Shown: piece after piece, positions 53,270-57,850 of the stretch | How the letters are laid out: each line of letters starts with the position of its first letter | How positions within the stretch are numbered: position 1 is the stretch's first letter | Assembly (NCBI RefSeq): GCF_001458435.1 | Contig: NZ_CYSF01000017.1 | Location: 62,001-126,000 of the forward strand | Source: Thalassovita mediterranea | GTDB taxonomy: Bacteria; Pseudomonadota; Alphaproteobacteria; Rhodobacterales; Rhodobacteraceae | Direction of reading: 5' to 3' | DNA: 64,000 bases | Made by a program: the position numbers and the translations under genes | The notes under the pieces: generated by a model | What the model was told of the DNA's origin: nothing | The model's database searches: none | The model's input: only the letters and a program-made list of their open reading frames with translations

Positions 53270-53796
53270 TGCAAGCTCCATTGCTCATTGGGGTTCAGCC
53301 CACGTTGAATGTGGAAAACGACACGTCTTTTGTTCCAATCCGCTAGCGCCTCTGCGTATCGGCACAGGACAGCCTGTGACACATTGGGCAGCCTTTGCGT
53401 GATGCACAGTTCTTGGGGCGAAGGCAGCTCCATCAGTGGCGGATTTATAGACTCTGGCACCGTCAGGTCCGCATAGGTTTGCAAATCACCTTCCAGCCAA
53501 GCGCTGACGCGCAGCAAACATGCCTCTGTCTGGCGCAACTCATATGCAATGTCGCAAAGGCGCTGAGATGTGGAAACACATAGTGCATCCATCGGGACGT
53601 GAGTTGGTACAGAAGGGACACGAGCAGTGCATTCGGCAAGATATCCTTCGACGTCGAACACCTGAGTCTCCGCAATCGCATCAGACGCGCTGCCAAGACC
53701 GCATGCCAGAATAACCCAACCCAGCATTGACCGGCACGGGTGGTTCCGCGGCCCCAAGAGATTGCGAATTGCGCCTATGGTCACCAGGCTCCTCAT
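53266..53796 (-). CDS. Unknown exported protein between acyl-CoA synthetase and mccB
   Basis: The 176-residue protein starts at an ATG (53796) with a strong GGGGGAG site; it shares four bases with the synthetase stop and four with the mccB start. The N-terminus is long (about 23 residues) before the hydrophobic stretch [15 protein letters not shown], followed by A-I-A-E. The mature part has six cysteines (for example E-C-T-A-R, A-L-C-V-S, R-L-C-D-I, E-A-C-L-L). It would therefore go to the periplasm, unlike its neighbours. No family recognised. Confidence 0.6.
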
Positions 53797-54512
53797 CCCA
53801 ACTCCCCCGCCGCACGCGCTTTCAGTTCCTTACGGATCACCTTGCCCGTGACAGTCATCGGCAGTTCGTCGAGGAAGGCAATCTCTCGCGGGTAGGCATG
53901 TTTGGCGATGCGGGCCTTGGCAAAATCCTGCAGTTCACGCGCCAGCGCATCAGAGGGCACGAAATCCGGTTTCAGCACGACATAGGCTTTCACGATCTCG
54001 GTGCGCAGCTCATCCGGTTTCCCAACCACCCCGACCGTCGCAACAGCGGGGTGTTTCAGCAGGCCATCCTCAATCTCACTGGGGCCGATCCGGTAACCGG
54101 CGGAGGTGATCACATCATCTTCCCGCCCCACGAAGCGCAGGAAATCCCCGTCCCAGATGCCGCGATCGCCGGTCAGCATCCAGTCGCCGCAGAACTTGGC
54201 CGCTGTTTCATCTGGACGGTTCCAATAGCCCAGCATCATCGAGGCCGCGCCGCGTTTGATCGCCACCTCACCTTCGCCATCTGTCACCTGTCCCTGATCA
54301 TCAAGGATGGCAATGTCGAACCCCGGTGCGGGTTTACCGATGCAGCCCGGTCGCGCTTCAAATAGACTATCGGCGGATGAGGCTACCATATTGCATTCGG
54401 TCTGGCCGTAAAATTCATTGATTGCGACGCCAAAGGCCCCCTGCCCCCAGTCGAGCATTTCTGCACCAAGTGGTTCACCCCCGCTAGCAACCGTGCGTAG
54501 GCCCGCGATCAC
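53793..54512 (-). pseudogene. 3' part of a split acyl-CoA synthetase gene
   Basis: The 239-residue frame starts at a GTG (54512) and holds the C-terminal part of an AMP-forming acyl-CoA synthetase: F-Y-G-Q-T-E-C-N, L-T-G-D-R-G, R-E-D-D-V-I-T-S-A-G-Y-R-I-G-P and the catalytic-lysine end T-V-T-G-K-V-I-R-K-E-L. It was separated from the 5' part by a 68-bp tandem duplication. The GTG overlaps the stop of the 5' part (GTGA) and is preceded by a GAGGGGG sequence, so separate translation is possible. Lacking the P-loop, it cannot act alone. Confidence 0.85.
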
Positions 54513-54595
54513 GGCCCCCTCTGCCTTTCTGCACCAAGTGGTTCACCCCCGCTAGCAACCGTGCGTAGGCCCGCGATCACGGCCCCCTCTGCCTT
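54458..54595. repeat. Perfect 68-bp tandem duplication
   Basis: Bases 54458-54527 reappear identically at 54526-54595, an offset of 68 bases. As 68 is not a multiple of three, the duplication shifts the reading frame of the acyl-CoA synthetase gene. Each copy encodes the E-G-A-V-I-A-G-L-R-T-V-A-S-G-G segment. Confidence 0.95.
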
Positions 54596-55429
54596 CAGCA
54601 TGCGCAGCGCGGTTGGGGGGAAGAAGACATTGCGCACCGATCCTTCGGCGATGATGCGCTGGCATTCATCGGTCGAAAACTTGGCCATACGTGCGGCGGC
54701 CACGGGCACGCCCAGCGCCAATCCCGGCATCAGCACATCAAACAGCCCGCCGATCCACGCCCAATCAGCAGGCGTCCAGATGCAATCGCCCTCGGCGCCT
54801 AGAAAATCATGGCTCATCTCGACACCGGGCAGGTGGCCAATCAGCATCCGATGCGCGTGCAATGCCCCCTTGGGCGACCCTGTGGTGCCCGAGGTGTAGA
54901 TCAGCACGGCGGGATCTTCAGCCCCTGTGTCAACGGTTTCAAAGGGCTGATCAGACAGCGTGACGTCCTCGGCAACCAGCGCCTGACGATCCGCGTCCTT
55001 TAGCCATTCCGCCAGACCCTCGGTGCCTTCTGGATCCGCAACAACCACGGCAACGCCTGCATCCTCTAGGCGGGTCAGCAGCGCCTCAACCCCGAACAGT
55101 TTGAACAGCGGGATCGAAATGGCACCGATTTTCCAGCACGCAATATGCGCCGCTGCGGTCCATCCCGATTGGGTGCGCAACACGCCTACGCGGTCCCCAC
55201 GCGACACGCCACGTGCCACCAGTTGATGCGCCAGACTGTCCGCCATTTGGCGCAAACGACCGTAGGTGATCGCCTCTGCCGCGCCCGATGATACGTCACG
55301 GATCGCCACCCGATCAGGACTACGGGCCGCCCAGTCATCACACACCTGCGCGGCCATATTCAGGCGCTCGGGGACTTCCCACTGGAACCCCCGATATAGA
55401 ACGCCATAGCTGTCAACACGCGGCAACAT
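54509..55429 (-). pseudogene. 5' part of a split acyl-CoA synthetase gene
   Basis: The 306-residue frame has the AMP-binding P-loop Y-T-S-G-T-T-G-S-P-K-G near residue 181, W-T-P-A-D-W-A-W-I-G-G and F-F-P-P-T-A-L-R-M-L. It then meets a stop at E-R-Q-R-G-P because of the 68-bp duplication. Removing one repeat restores one continuous protein of about 530 residues with the downstream part. The intact enzyme would activate a short or branched acid to its CoA thioester using ATP, feeding the leucine/isovalerate pathway. The start (ATG 55429) lies four bases after ivd. Confidence 0.85.
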
Positions 55430-55433
55430 CGGC

Positions 55434-56597
55434 TTAGCGCATCGCATTCATCAGTTCGCGGCCCACCAACATCCGACGGATTTCCGAGGTGCCAGCGCCG
55501 ATCTCCATCAGTTTTGCATCGCGGAAGATGCGGGCCACCGGGCTGTCGGACAGGAAGCCCGCACCGCCAAAGGCCTGCACCGCCTGATGTGCCACAACCA
55601 TCGCCTCTTCGGAGGCATAGAGACAGCACGCCGCCGCATCCTGACGGGTCACTTCGCCACGATCACAGGCCTTGGCCACCTCATAGACATAGGCGCGGGC
55701 GGAATTCATCTTGGTATACATATCGGCGATCTTGCCCTGCATCAGCTGGAAATCCCCGATCGACTGACCGAACTGTTTGCGTTCGACCATGTAGGGCATC
55801 ACCTCATCCAGACAGGCGGCCATGATACCGGTGCCGATACCGGCCAGCACCACACGTTCATAATCCAGACCGGACATCAGCACGCGCACACCTTTGCCTT
55901 CTTCGCCCAGCACGTTTTCAAACGGCACCTCGACATTGTCAAAGATCAGCTCGGCCGTGTTGGACCCACGCATCCCCAGCTTGTCAAAATGCGGGCTGGT
56001 GGAAAAACCAGTCATGGATTTTTCGACGATAAAGGCGGTGATGCCTTTGGACCCTGCATCGGGATCAGTTTTGGCATAAACCACCAGTGTATCCGCGTCT
56101 GGGCCATTGGTGATCCAGTATTTGTTGCCGTTCAGCACATAGTAGCCGTTGCGCTTTTCCGCCTTCAGCTTCATCGACACCACGTCAGAGCCGGCTGAAG
56201 GTTCGGACATCGCCAGCGCACCCACATGTTCACCGCTGATCAGACCGGGCAGGTATTTCTGCCGCTGTTCGTCAGTGCCGTTCAGCTTGATCTGGTTCAC
56301 ACAAAGGTTCGAGTGCGCGCCGTAGGACAAAGACACAGAGGCAGAGGCGCGCGCCAGTTCCTCAACCACTATCACATGGGCCAGATAGGACATGCCAGCG
56401 CCGCCGAATTGTTCCGGCACGGTGACGCCCAATAGGCCCAGATCACCCATTTCGCGCCAGAGTTCGTTGGGAAATTCGTTCTTGGCATCCACCTCAGCCG
56501 CCAGCGGCTTGATCCGGTCCTGCGCAAACCGATGCACCATATCGCGCAGCGCGTTAACGTCTTCACCCAGATCGAAATTCATCACGGCATTGAACAT
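55434..56597 (-). CDS. ivd: Isovaleryl-CoA dehydrogenase
   Basis: The 387-residue flavoenzyme oxidises isovaleryl-CoA to 3-methylcrotonyl-CoA. It has [10 protein letters not shown], which is typical of this branch of acyl-CoA dehydrogenases, M-S-E-P-S-A-G-S-D and [11 protein letters not shown] with the likely catalytic Glu, and a C-terminal [11 protein letters not shown]. It is the first gene of the operon, with a GGAGGGG site, and has a promoter and palindrome upstream. Confidence 0.95.
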
Positions 56598-56716: not shown

Positions 56717-56749
56717 ACAAAAAAGGGGACGGCCAGCACCATCCCCTTT
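56717..56749 (-). terminator. Terminator after the EF-hand gene
   Basis: On the minus strand aaagggga pairs with tcccctttt around a 12-base loop, followed by six T. It isolates the EF-hand gene from ivd. Confidence 0.75.
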
Positions 56750-56774
56750 CAGAGCCTTCATTCTTCAGATGGGA

Positions 56775-57662
56775 TCAGTTGTGAACCACTTCGCTCAGGC
56801 TCAACCGGCCATCGCGGTTTTCATCGTATTCCGCGATAAACACACGGGCACCTTGCAACGTGGTCAAATCCAAGTCTTCGCCGTCATCATGGCCCATAGC
56901 GGCCGTATCGGCGTCCCAATCGGCCTCCCACTTTTCCAGAGTCGCCTTGAGGGCGACGATACAGTCGACACTGGCACCCAGATCCTGCGTCAGTTCTTCG
57001 GGCACCAGTTGTTCCGCGGCGTTTTCATAAGCGATCACCTCATCCACCGTGACCAGACCATTGCCGTCCTCATCTGCCTCAAGGAAGGTTTCCACCGCCT
57101 CGCGCTGCATCACCGCCTCTAGTTCGTCGTAGGTGATAACCTTGTCGGCGTTGGCATCCATGTGCGCCATATCTTCGCGCAGCATATCCTTAACCGGGCG
57201 CGACATTTCAGCGGCCACTTCACTGCCAGCACAGACCTCAGGCACAGGCGGCATTGCGGGTTCATCGCCATAGTTGAATGCCAGATATTCGGTTTCAGTC
57301 ACCTGACCGTCACCATTGATGTCCAGTTCGGCAAACGCCACGCGAGCATCGGACGAGGCCTGCGCTGGCATACTGGCGCTGGCCAGATAGCCGCCTGCCA
57401 GCAAAAGCGCGGGCAAAGCCATGATGGAAACGCGGGTGGTGGTGTTTGACAGTAGGGTTTTCATTCTGGTGTCTCCTTTTGCAAAGGACACCCCACCAGC
57501 TGCCACAGACGCATCTGCCTGATCCTGCATCCCAATATCCTGGGCCACAAGGTCACGCAGATAGCCGCTCATCGTTTGACCATCTTGGGCCACACGACGC
57601 GCCAGATCCTGTTTCTGCTCGGGCGAGAGGCGAAATTCGATGCTTTCGGTTTTCTTGCTCAT
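56775..57662 (-). CDS. Ribbon-helix-helix / transmembrane / EF-hand protein
   Basis: The 295-residue frame has three parts. Residues about 7-44 (S-I-E-F-R-L-S-P-E-Q-K-Q-D-L, then M-S-G-Y-L-R-D-L-V-A) resemble a ribbon-helix-helix DNA-binding domain. Residues about 78-97 (V-S-I-M-A-L-P-A-L-L-L-A-G-G-Y) are hydrophobic and are followed by a possible signal-peptidase site A-Q-A (100-102). The rest has four EF-hand loops at about 114-125, 169-180, 197-208 and 280-291. An internal ATG (57464) has a strong AAAAGGAG site and would give a secreted EF-hand protein alone, so two products are possible. Whether the long or only the short form is made is not known. As a long form it would be a membrane-tethered DNA-binding protein with a calcium-binding periplasmic part. 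Confidence 0.75.
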   Translation of the reverse strand: MSKKTESIEFRLSPEQKQDLARRVAQDGQTMSGYLRDLVAQDIGMQDQADASVAAGGVSFAKGDTRMKTLLSNTTTRVSIMALPALLLAGGYLASASMPAQASSDARVAFAELDINGDGQVTETEYLAFNYGDEPAMPPVPEVCAGSEVAAEMSRPVKDMLREDMAHMDANADKVITYDELEAVMQREAVETFLEADEDGNGLVTVDEVIAYENAAEQLVPEELTQDLGASVDCIVALKATLEKWEADWDADTAAMGHDDGEDLDLTTLQGARVFIAEYDENRDGRLSLSEVVHN

Positions 57663-57795
57663 GCTATCAGAACCTTTCTTTATGCGGCGCCTGTCGTTCG
57701 TCATATCGTTCAAGAGGATATGGGACTGCGGATAGACTGCCGGGGTGTCTGCCAAATCACCTGACAATCCCGTCCCAAATTTTCCAATAAATCCG

Positions 57796-57850
57796 TGTCC
57801 GGCAAAAGGCATTTCGTGTCCGGACAACCGCAATTAAAGATGTCCGGACA
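57796..57850. repeat. Three TGTCCGG-type repeats upstream of the RHH/EF-hand gene
   Basis: The perfect palindrome TGTCCGGACA occurs at 57817-57826 and 57841-57850, and a partial copy TGTCCGGCAA at 57796-57805. The starts are 21 and 24 bases apart, about two helical turns. They lie in the 218-base gap before the gene, a likely operator array. Binding by the gene's own RHH domain is inference. Confidence 0.7.

Follow-up and report, generated by a model that had tools for sequence, protein, structure and literature searches.

A ribbon-helix-helix head fused to membrane-tethered EF-hands in Thalassovita mediterranea: a candidate self-contained regulator with a probable internal start

Related regulators and the gene in the window

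Membrane-bound one-component regulators are widespread, few have been studied, and helix-turn-helix heads predominate among them (PMC10269533; Demey et al. 2023). The TTRs, such as ToxR, CadC and TcpP, combine a DNA-binding domain with a membrane span and, in many cases, an outer domain. In co-component pairs such as ToxR-ToxS, TcpP-TcpH and VtrA-VtrC, a membrane regulator is accompanied by a second protein (PMC10269533). The main text of this survey mentions neither ribbon, RHH (ribbon-helix-helix), CopG nor EF-hand; its supplement may list RHH domains. RHH factors encoded near envelope-stress genes appear in the accessible part of PMC11237479 without fusions of the kind described here. The closest experimental precedent found is the Caulobacter protein CaBP (CCNA_02838), an alphaproteobacterial periplasmic EF-hand protein linked to gene regulation and to calcium limitation. 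It differs in that its circuit involves the sigma factor SigV, and the accessible part of the article makes no mention of ribbon-helix-helix (PMC13171946). A fusion of RHH and EF-hands was not found described in the literature searched, a search that most subscription journals lay outside.

The window, a stretch of 64,000 nucleotides of Thalassovita mediterranea DNA, contains one minus-strand frame (57662→56775) that is open for 295 codons and links an RHH head through a membrane segment to four canonical EF-hands. The initial annotation had read this in-frame combination from the letters, and the Pfam matches agree with it. The open frame and full-length fused homologs define the 295-aa long form (56775..57662, minus strand). 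Like the TTRs, the protein is predicted to contain a DNA-binding domain and a membrane region. Unlike them, it has an RHH head, a C-terminal domain of EF-hand or other type outside, its own gene as the sole target found and an internal start predicted to give a head-less form. A possible partner would come from the same gene through this internal start, in contrast to the co-component pairs. The head resembles NikA/MobC, CopG/Arc/MetJ and the antitoxins VapB and DinJ in sequence and expected fold; it differs from the matched RHH proteins in being tethered to the membrane with a sensor-like domain. The matched proteins are small and are not known to have a membrane span.

Upstream of 57662, the frame remains open as far as a TTG at 57833. 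Eleven of the 12 aligned proteins are taken to begin with the methionine that immediately precedes [S/T]KKT, and the upstream open stretch contains the proximal operator. The long start is thus likely 57662 rather than the TTG. A consensus scan found no sigma-70-type promoter before the gene. Directly 3′ of it, an intrinsic terminator with a 13-bp stem and a T tail (56721..56750, minus strand) was detected by hairpin scan and folding. Its hairpin folds at z -3.2; terminator-type sites number two by scan against 1.3 in shuffles, a count that is itself ordinary.

The gene stands by itself, flanked upstream by a DegT-family aminotransferase gene and downstream by an acyl-CoA dehydrogenase gene (Pfam). 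It is missing from all eight congeners examined, although in each of them the two flanking genes are present on a single contig. Pelagimonas and three Roseicyclus loci likewise have an acyl-CoA dehydrogenase-type gene within 6 kb; such a neighbour is shared by five loci, and synteny is otherwise lineage-specific. Because of this shared neighbour, loss in the congeners is judged at least as likely as recent gain here. Nearby, a minus-strand AMP-binding (acyl-CoA synthetase-like) gene contains a 68-bp tandem duplication (54455-54590, 99% identical, length no multiple of three), at which the gene breaks into the frames 54509-55447 and 53793-54512.

The search for RHH and EF-hand fusions that had been proposed returned eleven further full-length fused homologs from 394 family and 385 class genomes, a few of them common to both sets. 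The search profile was made from three fused proteins. With the window protein, 12 distinct proteins were obtained at E ≤ 1.1e-16, from nine genomes of the family set and five of the class set. After a gap, weaker matches begin at 4.3e-13; they are confined to the EF-hand part or, in a few cases, to the head, and many genomes encode EF-hand proteins that match the profile solely outside the head. The fused homologs are 27-42% identical and come from other genera and families; the most distant, L057, covers positions 2-211 of the 280 profile positions. A chance fusion or the loss of a stop codon was rejected because full-length fused homologs exist in other families.

When one genome per species was scanned with the 12-sequence alignment, 33 loci were obtained, including Pelagimonas, Roseicyclus, Cochlodiniinecator, Pelagibius, Nitratireductor, Marinicaulis, Caulobacter and one contig assigned to Woeseiaceae. 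The scan used one peptide pattern, which 122 stretches matched, and 33 passed the similarity test. The pattern admits serine, threonine or lysine at position 7, so these loci could not show other residues there; the later member set was collected by a profile HMM of the head and is free of this limit. A search with the head alone found strong matches (E ≤ 3.3e-14) in 5 of 385 class and 7 of 299 phylum genomes. All nine distinct ones continue into a membrane segment. Among the weaker head matches (E ≥ 1.3e-7), L069/L147, L159 and L187 were looked at; L069/L147 are MobC-like and without EF-hand. In the order of G581, another alphaproteobacterial order, family members occur in 68 of 200 genomes (one to four each, E ≤ 1e-8), one match having an internal stop, and the order of G986 has matches in 13 of 186 genomes.

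The first set comprises 35 members and the later set 87, after removal of two partial copies (L286+1608 of L319 and L272+1626 of L235). Both are non-redundant at 85% identity and phylogenetically non-independent. Counts over 120 genes combine the first set with the 85 later members long enough to scan. Three broken loci (L117, L119 and L121) are excluded from counts; they are decayed copies from Pseudovibrio and a Roseicyclus MAG with stop or frame breaks, and the operator is wholly or partly retained. A membrane segment follows the head in 84 of the 85. An RHH part encoded as a separate gene, which the initial annotation had named as speaking against its reading, is absent from the nine strong matches and these 84 members, and one case does exist: L239 is a bare head of 63 aa that ends at its own stop; its operator is of the family type, and no outer domain is evident in any of the frames. 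L244 consists of head and membrane segment only (80 aa). Both have Lys7 and an AT-centred site and may be decayed or reduced copies. L109, a full-length member, lies on a contig binned as gammaproteobacterial Woeseiaceae; transfer or misbinning is possible. The window gene is one of a large and apparently undescribed family of RHH membrane proteins.

Topology, outer domain and the proposed circuit

The hydrophobic membrane or signal segment covers aa 78-95 (57378..57431, minus strand) with a mean hydropathy of 1.75. Two family-wide patterns back the earlier assignment of DNA binding to the inside and of the EF-hands to the outside. Lysine and arginine are more frequent before the segment than after it in 106 of 120 genes, with the reverse in three, a positive-inside bias. 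Of 109 proteins of at least 120 aa, 105 have an even number of cysteines beyond aa 95 (none in 51, two in 49, four in five; the other four have one), a pattern expected if disulfides form outside the cytoplasm; the proteins with no outer cysteine, nearly half of the total, are uninformative here.

The four EF loops were located on the minus strand by Pfam and loop pattern: DINGDGQVTETE at aa 114 (57288..57323), DANADKVITYDE at aa 169 (57123..57158), DEDGNGLVTVDE at aa 197 (57039..57074) and DENRDGRLSLSE at aa 280 (56790..56825). Each of the four EF-hand stretches passes Pfam alone, and all loops are canonical calcium loops with D/N/E ligands. A fifth loop matched by regular expression at aa 248 (DWDADTAAMGHD) is probably spurious. 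The structure model of the window protein (22 sequences) has a mean pLDDT of 81 and EF block means of 66-97; the linker is poor. A structure search with this model gave 195 PDB matches at E ≤ 0.001, and the 50 listed are all calmodulin-like or contain calmodulin. Over the whole chain, the model agrees poorly with calmodulin (TM-scores 0.16-0.41, rmsd 8-17 Å over about 200 columns), so the likeness demonstrated is that of the EF-hands rather than of their arrangement.

The reading that fits the comparative data best, and which is considered probable, is a self-contained membrane regulator. In the long form, anchored in the inner membrane, the RHH head would face the cytoplasm and a calmodulin-like EF-hand domain the periplasm. 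Two long forms may pair as a homodimer, and their two-stranded ribbon (residues 7, 9 and 11) would bind the TGTCCGGACA sites 164-188 bp upstream of the own start. Binding there would most likely repress the own gene. Metal occupancy of the EF-hands outside, with calcium the probable ligand, may alter pairing or geometry and hence DNA binding; in this way, we infer, calcium could gate the regulator. A second, on average stronger, ribosome binding site in the same frame would yield a head-less short form. It would be exported, possibly cut at A-Q-A, and be periplasmic or secreted. The circuit may have this short form as its output, and the long form perhaps has it as a partner. The whole would act as negative feedback, with the own gene as the sole clear target and the exported EF-hand short form as the main product. 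The comparative evidence suggesting this circuit is the conserved fusion, the operator at the own gene, the covariation of head and operator, the internal start in two thirds of the genes and a C-terminal domain predicted to lie outside.

A wider reading is put forward tentatively, at somewhat less than even chances: one gene may be the whole homeostat, a sensor-repressor with its head-less exported twin, within a broad RHH class with exchangeable outer domains and a one-residue code. The twin would be both output and partner, pairing outside with the sensor and thereby removing its second DNA-binding half. In minimal members of about 110 aa with one loop, metal binding would be coupled directly to RHH pairing. 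Such members (L122, L230-L234, L243 and L249; L122 is from a Caulobacter sp.) have just one EF loop after the head and membrane segment, and they lack a canonical operator. With one loop each, an EF pair can form solely between two molecules, which suggests that metal binding is coupled to pairing; the missing operator counts against an unchanged transfer of the model to them.

It is rather unlikely that the EF-hands outside have a structural role or bind a metal other than calcium and that the membrane or a partner gives the signal instead. Calcium in sea water is normally high and steady, and a non-EF outer part stands under the same kind of head in 11 of 35 first-set members, while a regular expression found no EF loop in 25 of 85 later ones. 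Against this, all four loops of the window protein are canonical calcium loops, and EF-hands are the commonest outer domain (24 of 35 and 60 of 85 non-redundant members). In 11 of the 33 scan loci, a head and membrane segment of this kind are joined to an outer domain other than EF-hands. The model of one of these domains (L126) is a nine-stranded β-domain; a fold search with it gave nothing at E ≤ 0.001 and no convincing solved match. Members with such a domain (L120, L123-L132 and L173) have the same kind of head and operator, and 8 of 11 non-redundant ones have a cysteine pair.

If the self-contained regulator is real, it would be a candidate case of EF-hands directly controlling a bacterial transcription factor, and of a single gene that yields a receptor and its soluble counterpart through internal initiation. 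Sequence suffices to name the likely target (the gene's own promoter), the operator, the specificity residue and the likely class of ligand. The question of how an outside signal reaches DNA can thus be tested directly in one gene.

Probable internal start and the predicted exported form

The short form is predicted to start at an internal ATG (Met67, 57464) and to comprise 229 aa (56775..57464, minus strand), that is, a signal-peptide-like segment and the four EF-hands. A strong site before this ATG had been noted earlier and is indeed present: the Shine-Dalgarno (SD) stretch AAAAGGAG (57473..57480, minus strand) lies at the usual spacing before Met67. The family shares this signature. Within 16 codons before the hydrophobic core, an in-frame ATG occurs in 23 of 35 first-set and 57 of 85 later-set genes, 80 of 120 altogether; the two other frames together have seven and 17 in the same zones, 24 in total. 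Anti-SD energies of -4.3 kcal/mol or better were found at 22 of the 23 and 42 of the 57 internal ATGs. The mean profile (n = 80) has a sharp peak of -4.76 kcal/mol 13 bases before the ATG, and the long starts are weaker on average (-3.23 kcal/mol). Randomisation of synonymous codons never reached the observed mean (0 of 2000 for the first set; 0 of 500 in each set), so that codon choice does not by itself account for the SDs. Glycine codons in the zone of first-set genes are GGA in 15 of 16 cases, compared with 22 of 356 elsewhere in the same genes; the later set has no clear GGA bias (2 of 11). A trade-off between the SD strengths of the long and internal starts was not significant (p 0.13).

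The ATG window was chosen after viewing the first 12 genes. Where several ATGs lie in the zone, the one nearest to the membrane segment was taken for the main count and the one of lowest energy for some analyses. Part of the later-set work, including the glycine count, covered 87 of 89 members before the two partial copies were removed.

The in-frame excess of ATGs and the SD peak at initiation spacing suggest that most members probably produce both forms and nearly all produce the long one; two proteins appear to come from one bacterial gene. The initial annotation had proposed two products for the window gene, and the signature in 80 of 120 genes lends comparative support. The short form is not universal, since the zone has no internal ATG in 40 of 120 genes. 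These 40 genes bear on an improbable alternative, in which the long form alone is made, the SD-like stretch pauses the ribosome to aid membrane targeting and the methionine is incidental. An SD-like 8-mer of -5 kcal/mol or lower is present in 50% of them, compared with 64% of the 80 genes with the ATG, as a pausing signal would allow; pausing explains neither the 80 in-frame ATGs against 24 in the two other frames nor an SD peak exactly at initiation spacing.

Under the preferred two-form reading, export of the short form is plausible: a positive n-region, a hydrophobic core and a small-x-A site were seen in the window protein and across the 12 aligned proteins. The core of about 18 residues also fits an uncleaved anchor. 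The A-Q-A motif lies where it had been placed, after the membrane segment at aa 100-102 (57357..57365, minus strand), and its Ala102 is invariant across the 12 aligned proteins, window included. Signal peptidase I may possibly cleave there.

Head, operator and residue 7

The RHH head (aa 1-45, 57528..57662, minus strand) is defined by its match to PF21983 (NikA-like) and low dN. Searched alone (66 aa), it scores 29.5 bits, above the cut-off of 27; within the full protein, it scores 26.1 bits, just below. Most members are weakly recognised as RHH proteins, as five of 22 EF-type members match NikA-like and six RHH_1 at E ≤ 0.01. PDB profile matches of the head to RHH proteins are weak (E 0.005-0.06), and none of the five proteins submitted to NCBIfam scored above its cut-off. 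A NikA/MobC mobilisation gene was rejected: tblastn gave no match in 72,556 plasmid records, and the flanking genes encode an acyl-CoA dehydrogenase and a DegT-family aminotransferase. A type II antitoxin was rejected as well, with no toxin gene adjacent, metabolic flanking genes and a terminator of its own.

In six informative close pairs of relatives, which are mutually non-independent, head dN is 0.01-0.05 with dS of 0.2-1.0, and it is lowest or joint lowest in six of seven close pairs. The linker is more changeable than the head in five of the six informative pairs, with the SD-like stretch and ATG retained. In RHH structures, alternate ribbon residues face DNA; here these would be 7, 9 and 11. 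Residues 9 (Glu) and 11 (Arg) are invariant in an aligned set of 25 heads.

Upstream of the gene, sequence and conservation before relatives mark two TGTCCGGACA palindromes, a gene-proximal one (57817..57826) and, 24 bp from it, a gene-distal one (57841..57850); both lie 164-188 bp upstream of the long start. A half site GCCGGACACGGATT (57790..57803, minus strand) was recognised by sequence and comparison with relatives. The repeats had been noted earlier as possible binding sites, and the comparative evidence now links them to the head. The 10-mer occurs twice in the 3.43-Mb genome, both times before this gene. Among the first 12 proteins, TGTCCGGACA (10) or TGTCATGACA (two) is found 95-188 bp upstream of the long start. 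Matching sites before homologs rule out repeats that are local to this gene. Of 35 non-redundant members, 32 have the pattern [CT]GTCNNGAC[AG] no more than 200 bp upstream, irrespective of their outer domain; 300 rounds of dinucleotide shuffling gave a mean of 0.5 and a maximum of 3. The operator goes with the head rather than with the outer domain. Over 75 genes, the wider consensus is TGTC(CG/AT)GACACGAAA-like; about 21-30 bp beyond it, a second and weaker box follows.

The canonical pattern is absent from the searched stretch of L118, L122 and L174 of the 35 and of 31 of 87 later members, the siteless ones including Caulobacter-like minimal members. By eye, about a dozen of these 31 have a degenerate box ending in ACACGA. 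Beyond the family gene itself, a regulon search detected no surplus of sites. In 12 genomes, the 10-mer has 40 sites, 12 of them at the family gene, and a reversed control pattern has 48. The 14-mer TGTCNNGACACGAA was searched in 15 genomes: nine of its 12 sites are at family genes, and four genomes have none. The proposed model therefore has to accept a regulator that controls itself alone, which counts against it. An extra site in G061 (position 2179 of L114) is by no clear promoter. The 15-mer TGTCCGGACACGAAA matches nine stretches of viral contigs, a count without control comparison. In a literature search for the TGTCCGGACA string, the matches listed included p53 and other eukaryotic work, as far as the sources were accessible.

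Residue 7, a serine in the window protein (codon 57642..57644, minus strand; operator centre CG), covaries with the centre of the palindrome. In the first set, Lys7 goes with an AT centre in 11 of 11 genes and Ser, Thr or Gln7 with a CG centre in 20 of 20, 31 of 31 in total. Mutual information between residue 7 and the centre dinucleotide is 0.938 of 0.938 bits, and the next column (31) reaches 0.822. L131 has both centres; it was omitted from the 31 and scored as AT on the tree. The rule was fixed on the first set and later members were fetched afterwards; 37 of these, some of them repeats of the first set, were viewed before the formal held-out count. All held-out genes with an AT or CG centre obey it (8 of 8 Lys-AT, 35 of 35 non-Lys-CG, 43 of 43), the non-Lys residues also including Met, Phe and Ala. 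Other centres only are present in 13 of the 87 held-out members: an exception with Lys7 has a CT centre (L273), and in the remaining 12, residue 7 is S, T, M or V and the centre CT, CC, AG, AC or TC. When residue 7 is masked in the tree, the centre label changes five times (5-6 over bootstraps), always with residue 7; well-supported branches hold just one independent pair of these coupled changes.

The simplest reading, and a very probable one, is that the head binds its own operator. That another regulator binds there, with the head binding elsewhere or just tethering the chromosome to the membrane, is distinctly improbable: the lack of a regulon and the single-promoter location would also fit a membrane tether of the locus, and the covariation of residue 7 with the centre of the palindrome has no easy explanation if the head does not read the site. 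Tethering without regulation keeps some small probability. Very improbable is that the short form alone matters and the head is an in-frame leftover of an ordinary exported EF-hand protein, which the stronger internal ribosome binding site and the many EF-hand proteins matching outside the head would suit, given the low dN of the head, its covariation with the operator and the 40 of 120 genes that retain the fusion without an internal ATG in the zone.

Rarer residues occur at position 7 in members with altered left half sites before the common CACGA box, namely Arg7 (L260 and L301), Leu7 (L236 and L238) and Ala7 (L235 and L237); an example with Arg7 is ACGGACACGAA. These members may extend the one-residue code.
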